Source of the DNA: Sphagnum magellanicum
Lineage: Eukaryota > Streptophyta > Sphagnopsida > Sphagnales > Sphagnaceae
Direction: 5' to 3'
DNA: 64,000 nucleotides
Assembly: GCA_021904315.1 (NCBI GenBank)
Contig: CM038921.1
Location: forward strand, 10,632,146 to 10,696,145
The translations under genes were made by a program, and so were the position numbers. Position 1 is the first letter of the stretch; every line of letters starts with the position of its first letter. The notes under the pieces were generated by a model. That model saw only the letters and a list, made by a program, of their open reading frames with translations, was not told the DNA's origin and made no database searches. Of this stretch, positions 13,411-60,372 are shown in pieces.

Positions 13411-15004
13411 AAAAGATATGGAAAAAAGGCTTGAAGATAATCTTAGTGTGCAAATTGAAACAAGAAAAAATGAAAAAAAAGATAACAAAAACAACCTAAA
13501 GAAGTTACACATTCAAATTATGCAATGTTGTATCCTTTGTTATAATGGTCCAATCAATGCATTCAATTCAAGAACACAAGTAAAAAAGGGGTTAAAGTTG
13601 TCATATTATAAAAAACTAAAATAAAATCTTCTAAAAACCATGTGGATGCAGATCATGACATTGTTTCAAAGAAGTTTGAAAAGGGAGTGAACAATTTAAT
13701 GAAAGGGATAAAAAAAGACAATTGTAAGAAAAAACAAAATGCATCTAGGGATTTATAAATAAAAACATTGCAATGAAAGATTCCTTCCAAAGGATGATAT
13801 GAAGCATAAAGAGTTCCTTGAGAATTAATCTTTTGATTGTGAAGCACAATTTGTTAATCTAGTTTTTGAAAAGTGTTTAGTTTAAGTGTTTGACTTTGCA
13901 TTTGTGTCTGAGAATTAATTTCCCTTCTAAAAGATATCTTTCACAAGAAATATTACTAAGACTAATGGAGAAAACTAATCAACTTTATGTTTTTCTAACA
14001 TTGGTAAAATGTAATTTTGCAATTCCTAGCTTTAATCTCCAGATGTCGAAATGGGCATATGATTTGTTAACTTTGGTCATTACCTTTTTGGAAAGTAATT
14101 GTCAACTAAGGAATGTCACTATTGGCTTGTTTGAAGCAACAAAAATGATAGGACATGCCTTGGCTCAAAGTTTGATAGATTTGTTAGACAAGTATGGCCT
14201 AAAGAAAAAAATCATTGCTTATGTCACGGATGCAAGGTCTAGCTTCAATACAATGACTAATGCATTGAACTCAATTGTGAGTTGTGAATATTTTGGTTTG
14301 GAGAAATGTTATTGGAGAACTTATTTTGGTCATATTTTTCCAAAGCATGTCAATATGGCATGGTAGATGAAAAAATGGGCAAAATTTTGAAATATGTTTT
14401 TATTAAGTTGAAATTTGCAAAAGTGAATCAAATGGCCCAATTTTTTTGGGAAGGGTAAGTAAGAATGGAACAAAACTTACATTGAAGCTAGTATTCACCT
14501 AAGGAAACGAAATACCCCAATGAAAGGAAGGGAATCACTTTTTAATTTATTTAAATTTTTTTATCAACTAAAATTGAAGACAAATTTAATATACTTGTTT
14601 TTATTTTATAAGTTTGCTAGCAAAATAATCATGTTTCAAGAGACATTACAATTTCAAGTAATTATTGTGTTTTGTTATAGCAAATAGATTATTGTGAAGG
14701 TTGTTGATCGAGTGCCACTTCCTTTAACATGACGCATCTTTCATATTATTGTGAATTGTTTTTCTCCCTTTATCATTGCTTGTGTTTTGAACCAATCCCA
14801 TGGGCATTGGCTACTTGGTGATACACCACATTCTATAATTTCCATGAGTTTAAAACTTAATGAAGAAAATGAAGTTGTACATTTTTTGGATAGCTTAATG
14901 GAGGATGATTCAAGTGTTGCTAATGAGTTGGTTTTCCTAGCTTCTAACTTTAGAAGGCAAATTTGTGGTGTATTGGATTCTTCCTTTTCATTTGAAAGGA
15001 AATA

Positions 15005-37162: not shown

Positions 37163-37915
37163 GATCCTGGGTTCCAATTTTGTTGAAATTGGTGGAAAAA
37201 CTAGTTTGGTCCCCTGTTATTATTAAGGTGTATAATTTTGGCCTGTTTCCTAAGGGAATCTTGGGTTCAAATTTTGTTGAAATTGGTGGAAAAACTAGTT
37301 TGGTCCCCTGTTATTATTAAGGTGTATAATTTTGGCCTGTTTCCTAAGGGAATCCTGGGTTTGAATTGTGTTGAAATTGGTGGAAAAACTAGTTTGGTCC
37401 CCTGTTATTATTAAGGTGTATAATTTTGGCCTGTTTCCTAAGGGAATCTTGGGTTCAAATTTTGTTGAAATTGGTGGAAAAACTAGTTTGGTCCCCTGTT
37501 ATTATTAAGGTGTATAATTTTGGCCTGTTTCATAAGGGAATCCTGGGTTCTAATTGTGTTAAAATTGGTGGAAAAACTAGTTTGGTCCCCTGTTATTATT
37601 AAGGTGTATTATTTTGGCCTGTTTCCTAAGGGAATCTTGGGTTCAAATTTTGTTGAAATTGGCGGAAAATCTAGTTTGGTCCCCTGTTATTATTAAGGTG
37701 TATAATTTTGGCCTGTTTCCTAAGGGAATCCTGGGTTTGAATTGTGTTGAAATTGGTGGAAAAACTAGTTTAGTCCCCTGTTATTGTTAAGGTGTATAAT
37801 TTTGGCCTATCTCCTAAGGGAATCTTGGGTTCAAATTTTGTTGAAATTGGTGGAAAAACTAGTTTGGTCCCCTGTTATTATTAAGGTGTGTAATTTTGAC
37901 CTTATTTCCTAAGGG
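37163..37915. repeat. 94-bp tandem array, eight units, alternating A/B types
   Basis: The anchor tggtcccctg (one copy tagtcccctg) occurs at 37207, 37301, 37395, 37489, 37583, 37677, 37771 and 37865, exactly 94 bp apart each time. Units starting aatcttgggttcaaattttg alternate strictly with units reading aatcctgggttt/cnaattgtg, so the true repeat is a 188-bp dimer. The first unit (from 37163) is the most diverged. The core gttgaaattggtggaaaaac plus tagtttggtccc also occurs singly at 24.98 kb and inverted near 52.45 kb, pointing to a transposable-element origin. Confidence 0.95.
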
Positions 37916-38148
37916 ACGGACTCCAATAAGATTGGTACTGGTGAGGAGGAACTAATGAGCCTGGTTTGAAACAAGCTGGGTTTTTGTCTATTATGGACGT
38001 TTCTTGTCTCTTGAAGATGGAGGAGCTCTGGTGCTGGTTTTGATGATCAGTTTGTACACCGTTTGTCTCTTGGACTAGTTGTTTGGCTCCAGCCTCTTCT
38101 TGAAACACTCTGGTTTTGTTGCAGCCAGCAGGGTGATCATCATCGAGT

Positions 38149-38162
38149 CTCTATATATATTG
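38149..38162 (+). promoter_or_regulatory. candidate TATA box of the CLE gene
   Basis: The sequence ctatatatattgg stands about 375 bp before the CLE start codon. A second candidate, ctatatattaac, lies near 38228. A third TATA-like run at 38508-38515 is too close to the ATG to be the promoter unless the leader is nearly absent. The choice is by position only. Confidence 0.3.
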
Positions 38163-38463
38163 GTATGGTTATAAGATAGATCAAGCTGCTGCAGTACTGG
38201 GAGTAATTGTAGAATTAGCAAGAAGAGACTATATATTAACGTAGGATGAGCTTATGACCTGCAGCTGCAAGAGGATGCCAATGCGAACTTGCTGCTGCTG
38301 CCGATGATGATCTTATGCGGGTTTTGAAAGTGTGGCTCATAATTATGTGTTCACCTAGGAGCCCTTTGGTGGACCGTGGAACTAGTCGAGAATATATCCA
38401 AGCACTTGGGTGTTTTGTGCAGATCAGGTGTAGTAGTGTAGTACTAGTCGTTGTCGAGGCGGC

Positions 38464-38517
38464 ATGAAGATGGAGCAGCGCCCCAGCGACTCCAGTTGCA
38501 TTGCAAGATATATATAG
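38464..38517 (+). promoter_or_regulatory. upstream ORF in the CLE leader, 17 codons
   Basis: ATG at 38464 opens MKMEQRPSDSSCIARYI and stops at TAG 38515-38517, 19 nt before the main ATG. If transcription starts at either upstream TATA candidate, this reading frame would precede the CLE frame in the mRNA and could lower its translation. A shorter upstream frame starts at 38276. Confidence 0.4.
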
Positions 38518-38536
38518 CGGCTCGATCCTCCTCGAC

Positions 38537-39022
38537 ATGATGACATCTGCAGTTCTATTTTTGACACTGTTTCTTATTATAAGTATACACACGATCACCA
38601 GTGTTGTGGCCACGACGCTTGAGCACCAAGCTATCACGCTGGAAGAAGCTGCAGCAGCTCCCAACACTAGTACTCGTAACAGTACTAGTACTACGACAAC
38701 ACGCGAGCGCGTTGCAGCAGCAGAACTGGAGATTATGATGGGCACTAGAGCTGCAGCTCATGGCCGGGATGGTCAACGGCGGCTCCTGCAGCATGTTTTT
38801 GGTCGATCTAGAACAAGTCGTCGGCGGCCATTGAAGCTGGTGCAGAGCATAAGAAGAAGAACAAGAATCGGAAGAAGCAGGCTGCAGCAAGAGCAGCAGC
38901 TTCCAGGCCGCCGGCGACTTGAGGATCACAGTGGCGCAGCCGGCGACAAGAAAGGATTTGGGTCCGTGTTTGGGTCCAATTATCGTTTGATTCCCACTGG
39001 ACCTGACCCTCTCCACAACTGA
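38537..39022 (+). CDS. CLE signalling peptide precursor
   Basis: This single-exon 161-aa frame ends exactly in the CLE dodecapeptide RLIPTGPDPLHN (residues 150-161) directly before the stop. Residues 1-25 (MMTSAVLFLTLFLIISIHTI..VVA) form a signal peptide. Residues 26-149 are a variable, Ala/Thr- then Arg-rich region (RRRPLK, RRRTR, GRRR). CLE precursors are secreted and cut to a 12-13 residue peptide, with the motif's Pro4 and Pro7 hydroxylated and Pro7 often arabinosylated. The peptide is read by CLV1/BAM/PXY-type leucine-rich-repeat receptor kinases to control meristem and cell fate. Arg at position 1 and the LHN end place it with the R-type (CLV3-like) rather than the TDIF-like group. The first in-frame ATG (38537) is chosen because it begins the signal peptide; the frame is open a little further upstream without an ATG. 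An antisense frame (38236-38745) is a shadow. The target receptor and stage are unknown. Confidence 0.9.
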   Translation: MMTSAVLFLTLFLIISIHTITSVVATTLEHQAITLEEAAAAPNTSTRNSTSTTTTRERVAAAELEIMMGTRAAAHGRDGQRRLLQHVFGRSRTSRRRPLKLVQSIRRRTRIGRSRLQQEQQLPGRRRLEDHSGAAGDKKGFGSVFGSNYRLIPTGPDPLHN

Positions 39023-39317
39023 GAATTTTATTTTTATTTTTAAAAATCGTACTTGTAAACCGCAATATATTACATATGCAGGAGGTTTACAAAAATCTTG
39101 CCAACATTTGGTGGTGGTTTCTTTTGTGACCAGCAGCTAGCTGCTCTAATATTAAGTGTTGCAGGAACTTATAAGATCACTAGTGGATCTATTGAATTCA
39201 TAAAATGCAGGTTCACAATTCTGCTAAGATGATCATGATCAGTGTCAGATTACAACTCTGTGTTTTTATTATTGGAGTGATGTATAAAATGTCTTTTGGT
39301 TTTAATAGATTTTGTAC

Positions 39318-39323
39318 AATAAA
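39318..39323 (+). terminator. candidate polyadenylation signal of the CLE gene
   Basis: AATAAA lies 295 nt after the CLE stop codon in AT-rich sequence. This is a plausible 3' UTR length, but the motif alone is weak evidence in such DNA. Confidence 0.3.
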
Positions 39324-39329
39324 TCGCAA

Positions 39330-41120
39330 CCTTGATGCATTGAATATACTCATGGCACAATGATGATCAGCTCATATGATCTCATGATCTTCTTCCCCAT
39401 TTTTTGTTTGTTGCTCTTTTTCATCATTTGGCAATCTGCAGTTTAACTTTATGAGGAGAAACTAGTTGGGTTGCTGCAGGAAATGTGAATCTCTCACATT
39501 ACAAATGAAATTCACCAGGTTTAGTCTAAATCTAGATTAACATACTGGATTAATGGTTGGCGAATTTTTTCTATGGCTTTCTCTGATTGCTTGTTTGTTA
39601 GTTTACTTGCTACCATTGATTTCTTTGATTTTGCTTTTTAATTTTTCAATTACATTTCTTTCTCATTTTTGTTCAAGCACATTGCTCAAGCTTTCAAAGT
39701 TTTTGTTTTTTTTTTTCCCCTTTTTAGACGCTTGTGTAATTTTTTGAGCTTCTTGCATTAACTTTAAGCAAACATTGAGTTGTAAGGTTGTGAAATTTTT
39801 TTCTTGTTGCCTTGTTCATTGGCTATTTATTTTTTTGCTTTTTGTTATAGGGATGGTTGTGGTGATGGCAATCTATTTCTAGTGAATTTTCCTCCTCATT
39901 ACCTTAGCTCATCATCTTCTTGCTCGTCATCTTGCTCCATTTTTGGATGTTCAAAAAATGAATTTTTTGTTTTTTTCTTCTCAAGGAGTCCATTTTTTTT
40001 AGTCTTGCAAATTTTTTGAAAAATAAATTCAAGTTTGAACTTGCAAACATGATTTTTTTTTTCAAAGAGTTCATTATTTGAACTTGCAAAATATAAATAT
40101 TTTATTTTAAAAAATAAAACTTTTCTTGTCAAGGAGTTTGTAGACCAAACAATGGACACCTTGAAAATTCACTAAAATTAAATTAAATAAAATTAGGTCT
40201 CATTTCTTGGATTCACAAAAATGGAGCAAGTGGATGAGCAAGACTTGGATTTTAAAATCAGAGTGAACCAACAACCAGAATGATAGAAGGATGGATGGAT
40301 GAATGGATGGTCGGTGGACAAGAAACACTTTTTCATTGGGTTCCAGTTCTGTAGCTTTAACCACAGTGATTAGTTTAGATTTGGTTGTATCACCCTGGGT
40401 ATGAACAAGCCACAAATTAGCCCTTGCCTATATACTAAACCACCGACCTATCCACAGTCTTATCTTACCTACGGTCTATCTACCCACAGGACTTACCCAT
40501 TACATAAATATCTAGGTTACCATGGTAAAACCTGATGTCAACTCAGTTGGGGCTCATCAACCATGATCAAGTCATAGCGAGCTTTTCCAATGGATGGCTG
40601 GACTTGCTCTGGTCCTAATCGTGTCCGTTGATTAATAACAACAATAGATGGTGGAGATGCATGGCAAGAAGCATACAACAATAGTCTAAAAGAATGCAGA
40701 TAAACCCTAAACCCTAAACCCTAAATACTTACTTACTTACACACCGGGTCGGAGTGACTAGCCTATTGGGAATGGTTTTCAGGAATTGCTCAACTTGTGC
40801 AATCACTTACCTTTCACTTCAAATGTTGCACTTGTTTGTTTGTTGAGCAAACTGAATTCGTTGATTGAGTTGCATTTAAATCTCTCTATCTGAAATGCAA
40901 ACCCTAAAAAGGTGTGCTAGCTACTTACATGCCATCCATAATGCAAGGAAAAAAGGTATGATTACCCTACTCACTCCACTCACCCCTGGTGTCCATCTGC
41001 AGAGTTTTGGTGAACTACAATACCAACAAAGATCAGTATAGCCTAAACCTCCTTTTCTTTTTCCAAAAAACAATATTTTGGCAATCCTCTGGCAACAGAG
41101 GTCAGGATTTTAGAACAAGG
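39330..41120. other. intergenic, no gene recognised
   Basis: T-rich low-complexity text fills 39550-40170. The rest (40200-41100) is ordinary intergenic sequence holding the telomere-like tract given separately. No coding motif was found. Confidence 0.4.
40702..40725 (+). repeat. interstitial telomere-type repeat
   Basis: Three full AAACCCT units plus AAA are present, the complement of the plant TTTAGGG telomere repeat, followed by a short actt run. It may be a double-strand-break repair scar, or simply the telo-box-like motif found in plant DNA; only its sequence is certain. Confidence 0.7.
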
Positions 41121-46993: not shown

Positions 46994-49900
46994 CTACTTG
47001 GCATTTATGTTTGTAGGCACTTTTGTAGTACCTGCAGCTCGTTTGTCTCTTGCTGAAAATCTTGGCAGATTGAGGAGAGAGTTCACTCGGGTCACCCCTT
47101 CCAGGGCCGACCATTCTTCATCCTCATCTGCACCCAACCAATCTGCCAAACTACGTTTGCGTCGTGATTCACTGTGGACAATCTCCTTTGGTGGCTCTTC
47201 ATTTAATATCTCTCCCACTTCTGCAGTGCCATTTGGTGGGTCTAGTCTTACAGGAGGCAGAGCTGTCTCTTCCACTTCTAGTTCTCCATCATCTGACACC
47301 ACATGGGCTGTCTGAGGATTGACAACTTTCACAGGGAGATCAACTGACTCTGCAGATACAGGATTGTGACTTTCACAGAAGGGATCACTGTCTCCAGACA
47401 GCACGGAAGAAATATCTTCTCCTGTAGCATGTTCATGAGCTGAATCTGGGTCATCCAAGTAAAGGCAAACAACTGCACAGTCATCGACCTTTGATGTAGG
47501 GTACTTGAGTCTCCATACACGTACAGCTGACTCAACCAAAGCCCGGGCTGCTGTTGAGCGAGTGGGTGCTGAAGCAACTATATGCACCACTTCATCATTA
47601 CTCAGCACATCCCATATCTGCATTGTCAAATGGTAATGTCATGTAATAGTGTAACAGGATTCAAAGGACACCATACATGCCACAAACATTCCTGGTGTGG
47701 TGTGCTGTAAGGCTCCCTACTCAAAAACTGCAAAGAAGAAATCTCTGCAACTTTTGAATGAGAGCTAATCTTGCCATTGCAAAGAGAACAGTGAGGAAAT
47801 GTAGCATTTCCACACATACCAGTGGGACAGCCATACAGTACATTTACTAATATACAGATAACAAGCTAGCAAACACAACATGGCACCAGTTGGACTGCAA
47901 AAAAAAGTGAGCATACCCCATCTGATGCAAGAACAATAAACAAGTCCCTCTCTGTCAACTGTCGATAAGACATTTCTGGGACAGAAATGACCCCGTAATC
48001 TTTCAAGCAAAAGTCACCAAAAGCCCGGGCCATGGCTAGCCCTGGTGAGTCATCATATGGCAACCACACCCTTGAAACCTCTGGCTCATCATGTAGTGCA
48101 AATACTCGACCCTTGTATTCCCTTATGCGATCCGCTTCTTCTGTAAGTCCAAGACCCAGTTTGTTACAAAATGGACTTTCAAAGGCCAGAACTGGGATGT
48201 ACATTTCATGCAGCACCTACTTTGCTCAAACTTGTCACAAGTACCATCTTATATAGCAAGGCTCCAATACAAGTGCAAATTACATAGATAATTACCCCCA
48301 GGGGTAGGGTGGCAATGTCAGGTTCACCATTGAATGAACAACTGCAAAAGCCATAACATAAAGAGTTTCAATTGAAGTTTCAGCTCCTGAGGTGAAAAAA
48401 GTGGAGAGGACATTTACGAGGCAAGTTGGGTTTCAAGTCAACTGTCAACTGGATGGCTTTCAAGATGCCATTTTCATCTCTGGTTCCCATAATTGCCCGA
48501 GAGTCTCCCACATTCCCAATCACAAGGTGTTTTCCCTACAGTGAAAACAATACACAAGCTTACAGATGCTTCATTAACCCATCTCGTCAAAAACAAACGT
48601 CCCAAACACCACCACAAAACAAGCCTTCCATATCTATGACTTCAGCAAAGAAAAACTCAAAATCAATGCAAAGACCCAAGTTCATACTGATCTGCACATA
48701 ATCAGAATAATTCCTCCGAACTCAAATACAAAGATACAGTTGACATTGATCTGTGCCTAAAAACCTGCCCTAACTTTTGTAGTGTATTTAGACAACCTGG
48801 ATTTTGAGGCGCAAGAACTCAGCTATGGAAGATCTTATGAAACAGAAAAAATCTTCCAGAGCAGAACTGCATATCCTCTGAAAATTAGGGCAAGTTTTTA
48901 CCCCAGAGAAGGGTCAGTGCCCTTGACCCTTCCTTGTCTTTTGGTGCCTGCCACTTGCACTACCGCCCTCAGGCCTAGGCACCTCAAATCAAGGAAGGGC
49001 CTATGGAGGCCCTACCCTTCTCCTATACATATAATCCTGTCTTCAAGCTTCAGCTGTCTGTGAAACAAAGCAGGGTTAAAGTTTTCTGCTGACCTGTTTC
49101 AAGACTGTTACGGCGGTGGTACCACTGCAGAAGCAGTCAATGAGTGGATGTGATTGCAACTCTTTGTCCATCACTTGATAGGCTGTGAGATGCGCCTGCT
49201 TCCAAGGTGCAAACATTGGGGGCTTGCTTACAGGCTCAGAATTGTGATTGGGTGGAGGATTTTCCAATATAACAACACCACCACCCTCACTCAATTCTGA
49301 TTGTGCAGTGTCTCTGTCAGACTCATCAACATCGCCGATCGCACTCTCATATATACTGCTCACATTTGATCCATGGTCTGTCTGTGTGGTCTCGCATAGC
49401 TCTGCATTGTTGTCATCATCTGATTCACTCTCTTCCTTGTTGCTGTCCTCCTTAATCACAGCCAGTTCCTCTTGCCAGTACTGGAACAGTTTTGAAGGTA
49501 AAGAATCCCTCACCCTTCTAGCAACAAGATGGCCAAAAGGACCATGTCCATCATATACCCCACAGTACACTGTATCTTCCATGGATGCAAAATCCTGCAC
49601 AAAAGGAGGAGAAAAAGAATAATCTTAGACAGTTGAAAGAAAGTGGCAAGCCATCTAAAGCTCCTCCAGATACATACATGCCAAAAGGAAATTTTGCCAT
49701 GAGAAAAAACCAAAACAGATCTTACACAAAATACCCAAAGAAAACTATAGGGGAAAAACCTACCTCCCATACAATCATGGCATCCTGGTTGGTTCCTTTC
49801 CGACCTTGTTGTGTATAGATACATGAGATGTTACTTGCACCATTGCTACATGTCCTGCCAGAAATGGTGGCCAGAAGCTCATCGTTCTTGGCCTCCATAC

Positions 49901-50024
49901 TCAAAGTTTCCAGTGCTTGTCTCCTCAGTTCCTTCTTCCTCTGTCTCCTTGATCCGTTGTTCATCTGTTTGCCCCGCACATTCCCTGCTCTTACCGCCTG
50001 CGTTGACGACATACACGACCCCAT
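46994..50024 (-). CDS. protein phosphatase 2C, clade-E type, 575 aa, five exons
   Basis: Exons by GT/AG joins are 50024-49764, 49594-49094, 48535-48418, 48140-47917 and 47617-46994 (TAG); all phases agree. The product is a Mg/Mn-dependent Ser/Thr phosphatase. The start MGSCMSS is an N-myristoylation site with a palmitoylatable Cys, so plasma-membrane attachment is likely. Catalytic motifs are GRKGTNQDAM (74-83), GVYDGHGPFG (99-108, metal Asp102), CSGTTAV (243-249), GDSRA (264-268), LAMARAFGD (329-336), LASDGIWDVLSN (364-375, Asp367) and DDCAVV (413-418). An acidic Ser-rich loop (about 135-210) lies between the first two blocks and the third. A 150-aa tail ends with LADWLGADEDEEWSALEGVTR, a stretch I recall as typical of plant relatives. 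Relatives such as Arabidopsis PP2C52, which binds G-protein beta, and PP2C74 are membrane-linked; this gene's substrate is unknown. All key residues are present. Confidence 0.93.
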
Positions 50025-50690
50025 GTTGTAGTACACAACTCCGCACTTCGCCCATCTCCCTCCCGCCAATCCCCAAAACACACACACAAATCCCCGCACG
50101 CGCGCGCGCGCACAAACACACACGCGCACACACACACACCTGAGCTCAATCCTCCTCTTCTCTTCCTCTTACTCTACCTCCTCCACTCCATAGAACAGTG
50201 ATCGCTTGCTACTACACTTTCCCTCCTTGCTTGCCAATCAAACAACAGAGCTTCAACTTCCAACAAACAAACCATACCATCCATCATAGCTTACGAAACA
50301 CAAACGCATCATGCTCCAAAAATTAAATCACCTCTGTTCTTTCACCCAGCTGCAGCAGCAGCAGCAGCTCCAATCCCTACAACAACGAAAAATACAACAA
50401 GACCACAAGAAGACATCATCATAATAACACAAAGCAAACCATTTTCTGAACTCCCCTCCCCCCGCCCCAAAAAAAAACAGAGAGAGACAGAGACGGATAG
50501 GGAGAGAAACCACAAAAAGGAAAGGCAGTCAGTCAAGGGAAGAAAAAAAAACACAAAAGCAAAGAAAGAAACAGAGCAGCAGCAGGCGTACAGCAATACC
50601 GAAGAAAGCGAGCAAAGCTCGGAGATGTTTGAGCTTGAGAGGAAACCGGGAAACGTGCAACGACAGAAGAAGAAGGAAAAGAAGAAGAAG
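50025..50690 (-). promoter_or_regulatory. probable 5' leader of the PP2C gene
   Basis: Upstream of the PP2C ATG (on the minus strand) the sequence is rich in GT/GC alternation (50093-50130: acgcgcgcgcgcgcac and cacacacac) and then in CT runs (50470-50700), typical of plant leaders. Frames here (for example 50342-50713) are composition artefacts. The transcription start cannot be fixed. Confidence 0.45.
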
Positions 50691-57115: not shown

Positions 57116-59345
57116 TCAGAGCAAGGCTTTACATGCAAGGAACAACTGTCTCGAAACCCGACAACAAAAACTCCAAACTCCAGTAGAGATTGTGTTTACC
57201 AATTTTGCAGAATGGGGTTTTGCAGTGGTACTGCACTTCAAATTGGGTGGGATGGTTATGTGATGATGATGATGATGATGTGAATTTTCCTCATGAACAA
57301 CTTTGGTGTCTGCAGTGCACTGTGGTAGTGCAGAAGTTGTGTACTGGTATTGTTTTTGATGGCCAGTTTGCAGCACACTTCTGCTGGAATCACTACTATC
57401 CGGCTCATCATGCTCATCAGCTTGTGAATTAGTTGTCTCAGCCAGAGCTGTGCCTGGCCTGTGTTGATGATCCTCTTTGATCAGCAATGCCACCTCCTCC
57501 TGTCTATCCCTCAGCTTCCGGATGATAAGCATCTTCAACAGATTCATCACTTGCACCACATGCATTAGAGCTGTCAATGGATCCAATATCTGAAGACACC
57601 CAAGTGGATTCATTCTCACATTATTCCCCAGAAAAGCTACTCACATTTCTCATATCCAATGAATATAGTTGAGAACCCATTTGTGAAGAAGATCATCAGG
57701 TGTCAACTGAATCATCCCTGAACAGCTCTTAGAATCGAAAAATCACATCGCTAAATGTGAGTGAAGAAGATCATCAGGTGTCAACTGAATCATCCCTGAA
57801 CAGCTCTTAGAATCAAAAAATCACATTGCGAAATGTGAGTGAAGAAGATCTTTGTCTACCCCTTGAGAGACAGAAGATTTGGGTAGGGGGGGGGTTGGTT
57901 GGTTGGTTGATTACCTGGGTCATATTTGGGGCAAAGACCATGGCAATGTTGTGAGAATTCATTTTGTTGATGGCTTCTTGTTGCACGACATCCGCCATCA
58001 GGTTCACAGCCCAGTCAAGCAGGGAAGCTTGTGTGGTTGGTAGTAGCCTCACCAGAGCTACACTTTCCTCCTCGCTCTTGCACTCCATAACTTGGGGAGG
58101 TGTGAACACATCCAGCAACCCCTCTGGAAGCTCCCTGAACCATGCCTGCCCACAACTAATTCCATTAGCACAAACAAGTGAGCCTAACTTCAGAAAGTCT
58201 CAAGGTTCAGATTAAGTAAGTAAGAGTTTTTGCAATTAAAGATTCATTCATGACACATAAAAAATGGTGTGCAAAAAACAAACAAACAAACAAATATCAT
58301 GTCGATGATTCATTGCTCCTTTGTACACCAGAAAAAGACTGGTAATTGTAGTCACAATAAATTTCTTCCTTTTGTCTCTCAAGCAGAGCTTGTAATTATC
58401 CCCATAGGGCACACACATTTACAAAAGTGAAGATGAAAAAGAAAACCAGTAACAACAACCTTGATGAGACCAGCAAGGCAGTGGACATCAATATCCACAG
58501 GCACTATACCCTTGTTCAGTTGATCCCATACATGTTTTGCATGACCGTTTTCTGCATTTATTCTGAAGATGCCTTCCACCTGCAGGGGATAAAACCAACC
58601 CAAAAAAAAAAAAAAACGGAAGGATTCAGTTCCTGATTCTTGGCAATAAAAACGGTGCAGCATTCCATTCACAGAGTGTAGCGCACTCACCTGGATAGAC
58701 TGGCACGCAGAGAGTGGGTTACACTCGGTAAATTAGGATATCTTTCCATTAGGCTCTTGTGATCACAACAGCTTTCCATTATGTTTGTTTTTTCAACTAG
58801 CTGTGTTCACAATTATCTCACAGATCTACAGGTCAAGCATTGAGCAATTGCAGAAGCTCTGAGTAAAACTGTGACTTGCCATACAGTGACATCTGTCCTT
58901 TTTTCCATGTGAGCATGTGTTCCCAGAGTTCCTAACATTGATTAATTACATATTTTCACCACACTTGGCAGATATGCAATGGAACGTGACCATCCCAACA
59001 GGAAGAAACAAGGCCCTATGTCAATGGCTTTCTATTAGGATGTTGTGATCACAACACAGTGCTCTCTGTAACTGTGATCACAGCAGCCTAGTGGAAAACA
59101 GACCCTTAACACCCTTCTTTCTCAAAACGATGTGGAAATTGGTAAAGACCTACCTTCAAGCCTCCTCTTTGATAAAGCTGCTCTTGCATTAGAAGGAGAA
59201 TCACAGGTACACTGTTTCCCCTGGAGTCGAAGGCACATTGCATGGACTCAATGGAAACTCCGAATATGGTTTGACTGCCATAATAAAAAGTAAGAGAACA
59301 AGTGTGTCAGAGAGCTCTGTCAACCCTTGCATGAATTCAAACAAA

Positions 59346-59413
<68 letters not shown>

Positions 59414-60286
59414 AAGCCCCCTCCCTCTGGGCAGCCCCCGAATCTCAAAAAACCAGCAACTTCGAGATTTTGTCTCTCTGTCGTGTGGGGAAACCAAACA
59501 ACCCACAGGGATGGGATGGGTTCAACGATAAAATTGCAGTTGTAAGACAGACTCTGTGCAGAAGTTTAGACTCATTTGGTTTCCAGACAAATAAAAGCTT
59601 CAAAGAAGAATCTGAACTCTGTCAATCTGAAAATCTTGCAAACCATCATCACTTGTAAGCAACAAAAAACAAAAAAAAAAAAAATTTAAACTTGATCCAG
59701 AAAAAAAAAAGGGTATTTTGCTGAGGATGTATATAACAAACCTGGCGCTGGGGGGTCGAAGAGGAACCTCGATCTTGAATTCTTCGGGGAGGCCCAGAAA
59801 CCCATTATAGCGATCAAATGTGACATGAGCAATATGTTGGACATGAGTTGGCCATTCAATTACTGGAGCTTGCAGGGGCCGTTGAACTATTTCTTCTTCT
59901 TCTTCTTCTTCTTCTTCTTGCATGGAATGACAAGAACCCATCAAAGATCTTCCTACTGTATACAAAAGCATATTAGCAGCTTCAATAGAGAGTTGAGCTG
60001 AGCAAGACTTTCTCTTTTGTTTCTGCCCATTTTCTTCATGCTCAGCTGGAGTCTGTTGTTGTTGTTGTTGCTGCTGCTGCTGCCTCTTCTGAGTTGATCC
60101 TCCACCTCCTCCTCCTCCTGCTGCTGCTGGTGGTGGTGGCTCCTCCCCAGACCTCCGGCCTTTTTTGTGATTGCTGGAATCAGGACCACTACTACTACTA
60201 CTAGTGCTCAACATCTCTATGTCATTTCTTGAGCCTTTGATAACATTGAGCTCAGCAGCAGCTCTTGGAAGAAGTTCTGCTGTCAT
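57116..60286 (-). CDS. RopGAP: CRIB plus RhoGAP domain protein, 496 aa, five exons
   Basis: Exons are 60286-59742, 59274-59154, 58579-58460, 58145-57915 and 57589-57116 (TGA); phases agree at every join. ATG at 60286 is the first after an in-frame TGA upstream. The product speeds GTP hydrolysis by ROP (plant Rho) GTPases, switching them off at the plasma membrane in polar growth and wall patterning. The CRIB motif IEWPTHVQHIAHVTFDRYNG (143-162) binds active ROP. The RhoGAP domain (about 183-365) carries the catalytic Arg228 in VEGIFRI, then DIDVHCLAGLIKAWFRELP and NKMNSHNIAMVFAPNMTQ. The N-terminus has Gly7 (57-63), Gln10 (69-78) and Glu9 (124-132) runs, and the tail has His7 (443-449). These tracts come from trinucleotide repeats and are unlikely to be conserved. 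Length fits the CRIB-bearing RopGAP family (about 430-500 aa). Nothing essential is missing. Confidence 0.94.
57683..57850. repeat. 78-bp tandem duplication in RopGAP intron 4
   Basis: gtgaagaagatcatcaggtg starts at 57683 and 57761, and gtgaagaagatc again at 57839, so there are 2.2 units of 78 bp. The two full units differ at only a few positions, which indicates a recent event. It lies between the intron 4 donor (57914) and acceptor (57590) sides and does not touch the splice sites. Confidence 0.85.
58742..59098. mobile_element. MITE-like element in RopGAP intron 2
   Basis: The left end ctttccattaggctcttgtg(atcaca) and the right end (tgtgatca)cagcagcctagtggaaaac pair over about 27 bp with a few mismatches. 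An inner copy of the motif (ttctattaggatgttgtgatc) lies at 59029. It accounts for most of the 574-bp intron. There is no coding content. Confidence 0.6.
59349..59411. repeat. CT microsatellite, about 31 units, RopGAP intron 1
   Basis: This is an uninterrupted CT run of about 62 bp inside intron 1 (59275-59741), read as GA on the gene strand. It is long enough to be length-polymorphic. Confidence 0.95.
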
Positions 60287-60372
60287 TGTAGACAAATCTT
60301 TCCAAATGGGTCTCGCTCAGAAAATGGTTGTAAGTCCCGGAGAAGAAGCAAAAGCAGCTTCCTCTGTAACTG

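Follow-up and report, generated by a model that had tools for sequence, protein, structure and literature searches.

CLE signalling has been tied to the three-dimensional growth of land plants (PMC6089843). The moss CLE experiments cited here come from Physcomitrium only, where the four reported peptides all have Val3 and Asn8, and none has Ile3 or Asp8 (PMC6089843). The P. patens-type moss consensus is given as RXVP(S/T)GPNPLHN (PMC7552357). For the peat moss Sphagnum fallax, CLE genes number nine according to an earlier study cited in PMC6612224 and 11 in PMC7552357. PMC6612224 writes the end of the motif as NPLHN for P. patens and as BPLHN (B taken as N or D) for its other species. Here we describe an intronless frame of 161 codons on the plus strand of a 64,000-nucleotide stretch of contig CM038921.1 (the window), which opens with ATG at 38537, closes with TGA at 39020-39022 and has RLIPTGPDPLHN as its C-terminal end. 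We hold with good confidence that it is a functional CLE gene of the R type, encoding a secreted peptide hormone in a moss that is very probably a peat moss.

The closest described peptide is Arabidopsis CLE18 (RQIPTGPDPLHN), which matches the window peptide at 11 of 12 residues, including Ile3, Thr5 and Asp8 (PMC5538625). An earlier note on this DNA, made from the letters alone, had not counted this combination among the known Arabidopsis dodecapeptides, and its argument for novelty is wrong. The two proteins nevertheless differ in layout, since CLE18 carries its CLE motif in mid-protein together with a C-terminal CLEL motif, whereas in the window gene the stop directly follows the CLE motif. 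Among moss peptides, PpCLE5/6 of Physcomitrium patens (RLVPTGPNPLHN) is likewise R-type and shares 10 of 12 residues, with V3 and N8 where the window peptide has I3 and D8. The His1 and the I-S-N type ending of H-type (TDIF) peptides are lacking in the window gene, which has Arg1 and an LHN ending. The exact RLIPTGPDPLHN was not found in the main texts of the open full-text literature (supplements lay outside that search), and PTGPDPLHN occurs there for CLE18. Surveys of S. fallax may already list RLIPTGPDPLHN.

The precursor and its two paralogues

The gene presents the full layout of an R-type CLE precursor: a C-terminal 12-residue motif that starts with Arg and is followed by TGA, as in both paralogues described below; an N-terminus that qualifies as a signal peptide by our own heuristic (a hydrophobic core plus a -3,-1 site); and a small product of 161 residues with a non-conserved middle, the pro-region being not readily alignable. 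Both the intact single-exon frame and the R-type architecture had been proposed in the earlier note, and both are borne out, the signal peptide at the level of that heuristic. The chance of meeting such a motif is minute. With the six-frame residue frequencies of the window as background, chance would give the exact 12-mer plus stop 1.5e-12 times in this stretch and 1e-8 times genome-wide; for a degenerate CLE motif before a stop, the figure for the window is 1.6e-8. A six-frame scan of the window for CLE-like motifs found none besides this one.

The genome searched comprises 438,994,042 bases in 31 contigs. A protein search with the precursor returned three matches, namely the gene itself (contig C15) and one locus each on contigs C4 (L002) and C10 (L003). 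Both paralogues are open, with 178 and 282 residues from the first in-frame ATG, or 156 and 251 from the ATG that fits the start of the window gene, and both end in RLIPTGPDPLHN plus a stop. Beyond the motif and about 10 preceding residues the three precursors hardly align. At the DNA level their main alignments span 74-84 bases at the frame ends and run no further than 9 bases beyond the stop; otherwise, the C4 and C10 genes have one upstream stretch in common, and there are a few matches of 16-30 bases. Within the motif, nonsynonymous divergence (dN) is 0 in all three pairs at a synonymous divergence (dS) of 0.25-0.41, rough values from 12 codons. In the 11 codons before the motif dN is 0.08-0.29, again rough, with few sites and one dS not computable. 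Fourfold sites are invariant at 5 of 7 positions in the motif vs 0 of 4 before it, a hand count too small for a claim.

The identical motif in two open paralogues, together with a motif dN of 0, therefore makes it very likely that this is a genuine R-type CLE gene maintained by selection. The earlier note would have counted the absence of a transcript and of conservation in related genomes as refutation; conservation was checked within the gene's own genome, and the gene passed. Open frames amid drifting pro-regions and flanks have the look of a CLE gene under selection, and a Ka/Ks of 1.17 reported for the whole S. fallax CLE family (PMC6612224) agrees with fast pro-regions.

The hydrophobic core at the N-terminus reaches 3.33 on the Kyte-Doolittle scale and is accompanied by a VVA^TT site. 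Among the 86 ATG frames of at least 60 residues in the window, a core of 2.9 is reached by two, only one of which has a permissible cleavage site. The cores of the paralogues (2.83 and 2.57) are hydrophobic, yet fall under the 2.9 cut-off. No Pfam family was found for the CLE frame at E up to 10, and a PDB sequence search gave nothing meaningful (one match, E 1.1); these blanks are no evidence against CLE identity, because a 12-residue motif is expected to give none. The features of the locus are as follows.

38537..39022, plus strand: CLE precursor coding sequence, 161 codons plus TGA; a second ATG at 38540 may be the conserved start
38537..38611, plus strand: signal-peptide-like N-terminus, codons 1-25, cleavage predicted at VVA^TT by our own heuristic
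38612..38953, plus strand: variable pro-region, rich in Arg, Ala, Thr and Gln, where the paralogues are not readily alignable
38954..38983, plus strand: pre-motif GFGSVFGSNY, similar among the three paralogues
38984..39019, plus strand: CLE dodecapeptide RLIPTGPDPLHN, identical in L002 and L003
38464..38517, plus strand: possible upstream open reading frame MKMEQRPSDSSCIARYI in another frame, recognised by eye; resembles an in-frame N-terminal extension of the C10 paralogue (L003)
39318..39323, plus strand: AATAAA, a possible polyadenylation signal by its sequence
37164..37916, no strand: tandem array 5' of the gene, 94 bp x 8, 93% matches, ending 620 bp before the gene
38555..39136, minus strand: antisense open frame, stop to stop, judged incidental

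A protein alignment pairs the second Met (38540) of the window gene with the first residue of the C10 paralogue, and a protein of 160 residues is therefore possible. A TATA box at about 38507-38516 was considered and is doubted by eye; similar sequence lies in the paralogues at the same distance from the ATG. The antisense frame, which the earlier note pointed out, does exist and spans 155 codons inside the coding sequence, but permuting synonymous codons 2000 times equals it in 13.2% of cases, and in the paralogues the antisense strand stays open for at most 76 of 157 and 83 of 252 codons. We therefore reject an antisense gene and regard the frame as a by-product of codon composition.

Other CLE frames of the genome

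A DNA pattern for GP(N/D)P, then one of F/L/I/M/V, H, and N or H, occurs at 12 places in the genome, against one for the reversed pattern used as control. These are the three I3/D8 genes, six further CLE frames and three places (L004, L005 and L009) dropped as chance, with a stop just before GPNP or a frame of only 18 codons. The motifs of the six are RLVPTGPNPLHN, RMVPTGPNPLHN, RTVPTGPNPLHN, RLVPTGPNPFHN (twice) and RMVPTGPNPVHN. Since the search pattern is strict, the nine CLE frames are a lower bound; the number equals one of the two counts for S. fallax, which would be a member of the same genus if the assignment to peat mosses is right. One TDIF-type DNA pattern was found at no place in the genome (nor was its control), which agrees with the loss of this type reported for Physcomitrella and inferred for mosses (PMC6089843).

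All six further frames (L007, L008, L010, L012, L013 and L014) have V3/N8 motifs followed by a C-terminal tail of 8-11 residues. The tails are alike, for example SNTTQISYP and SNRSDVIP. L007, L008, L013 and L014 each have a candidate signal-peptide exon 0.9-1.2 kb upstream; in the first three, these exons start alike, with MAI and, closely after, CWS. The R-type motif is thus common to both groups, whereas the V3/N8 frames have a tail and possibly a separate first exon and the I3/D8 genes end at the motif. The Arg1 codon likewise differs, being AGA in all six V3/N8 frames and CGN in all three I3/D8 genes.

One possible explanation, compatible with a functional hormone gene and held here tentatively, is that the I3/D8 genes represent a Sphagnum-lineage or ancient moss CLE class whose function is distinct from that of V3/N8 peptides, for example in receptor preference. 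It is favoured by the division just described, with three genes ending at the motif on one side and six tailed frames, four with a candidate upstream signal exon, on the other, and by the fact that none of the four reported Physcomitrium peptides belongs to the I3/D8 class. The contrast in exons is not firm, however: the frame of L007 itself also includes a hydrophobic stretch led by Met, L010 offers several candidates, and for L012 there is no convincing one. Moreover, Asp8 alone need not change specificity, because P. patens responds to CLV3, which carries Asp8 (PMC5538625), as well as to its own peptides (PMC6089843). That peat mosses keep a second CLE class (intronless, AtCLE18-like I3/D8, pre-motif GF(G/A)SxFGS) which Physcomitrium is without, and which would have its own receptor preference or a Sphagnum developmental role, is a rather doubtful extension of this explanation.

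Upstream region and duplication history

The C4 gene is preceded by a stretch of 116 bp that has 75% identity (118 columns) to one preceding the C10 gene. These noncoding stretches lie at L002:414-529 and L003:118-231, more than 0.6 kb upstream of the CLE genes. A genome search with the stretch returned the query itself only and missed the known C10 copy, and is thus uninformative on absence elsewhere.

Several observations weigh against a functional gene at the window locus. The C4/C10 stretch was not found in the window at word size 7, so regulation of the C15 copy may differ, or its expression may be weak, and the 94-bp array comes within 620 bp of the ATG. Both would suit a decaying, silent duplicate that has lost its regulatory region, perhaps as the tandem array formed, leaving the function to two functional paralogues; so would the K, V and N that the C15 gene has before the motif where both paralogues have Q, R and T. 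We find this explanation unlikely, as 161 codons without a stop, the start and signal-like core, and an unchanged motif have all been kept, though flank matches are short or none. The signal peptide call, moreover, comes from our own hydrophobicity and (-3,-1) heuristic only, not SignalP. On the receptor side, it speaks for the gene that all three candidate leucine-rich repeat (LRR) receptor frames fetched from the genome contain WKLTAFQRLDF, close to the CLV1 juxtamembrane stretch WKLTAFQKLDF, and against it that the PDB matches of one such frame are generic LRR. Finally, the residue before Arg1 is Tyr, Tyr and Asn across the three I3/D8 genes, whereas for P. patens and S. fallax a motif with a leading D is reported (PMC6612224), by our reading at the same position, and processing could therefore differ.

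A chance open frame is vanishingly improbable. Frame length by itself is only moderately unusual and weaker evidence than the motif, since first-order Markov surrogates, 1000 per region, reach at least 161 residues from an ATG 5 times for 37920-40100 and 4 times for 38501-39022, but the motif expectation in the window and the two paralogues refute a chance origin.

The earlier note had placed the gene between repeat blocks. This holds upstream, where the 94-bp array lies, and less so downstream, where the next array is small (25 bp at 40701).

Four stretches of 10 kb adjoining the CLE loci of C4 and C10 were compared with 204 kb of C15. Apart from the CLE frames, and one of these in antisense, the only matches were two spots in L045: one multi-copy (4 places), the other a weak single match (46%, E 4e-7), about 104 kb from the CLE gene. 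A segmental origin is therefore not shown. The window also holds a RhoGAP gene on the minus strand (57116-60316), with PF00620 in one frame and a below-cutoff PBD/CRIB match in another, presumably the make-up of plant RopGAPs. The closest paralogue of its exon at 57816-58199 (81%) is at C10:15555951-15556208, 0.42 Mb from the C10 CLE gene, while on C4 the RhoGAP matches and the CLE gene are 4.4 and 7.7 Mb apart. The C10 copy may hint at an old segmental or whole-genome duplication, to which the nearby microsynteny gives no backing.

Elsewhere in the window, a probable PP2C gene occupies frames at 46994-50168 on the minus strand, with PF00481 in one of four frames scanned (47869-48216). A 78-bp tandem duplication (57683-57850, 96% matches) extends into the end of a RhoGAP frame (57813-58199). 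A frame at 13881-14366 resembles a hAT-type transposase fragment by eye, with no Pfam match at 0.01. Neither an Rfam nor a tRNA scan of the window gave a hit.

Possible action and meaning

By analogy with the CLE family, the precursor would enter the secretory pathway and be cleaved before Arg1, the stop codon fixing the other end of the peptide. Pro4 and Pro7 would probably be hydroxylated, and perhaps arabinosylated. Neighbouring cells would then perceive the 12-residue peptide by means of CLV1/BAM-type LRR receptor kinases and/or RPK2, so that proliferation would be restrained and divisions oriented in gametophore meristems. Gametophores of Physcomitrella are dwarfed by its own CLEs and by Arabidopsis CLV3, and Pprpk2 mutants do not respond (PMC6089843). 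CLE18 belongs to a set of 14 peptides selected for their root activity at 50 nM; a crn mutant resists all members of the set that were tested (PMC5538625).

The general picture of CLE genes is unchanged by this locus. RLIPTGPDPLHN offers a defined peptide for testing, and the presence of three genes for one D8 peptide in a probable peat moss suggests that the diversity of moss CLE peptides is wider than the model moss shows.
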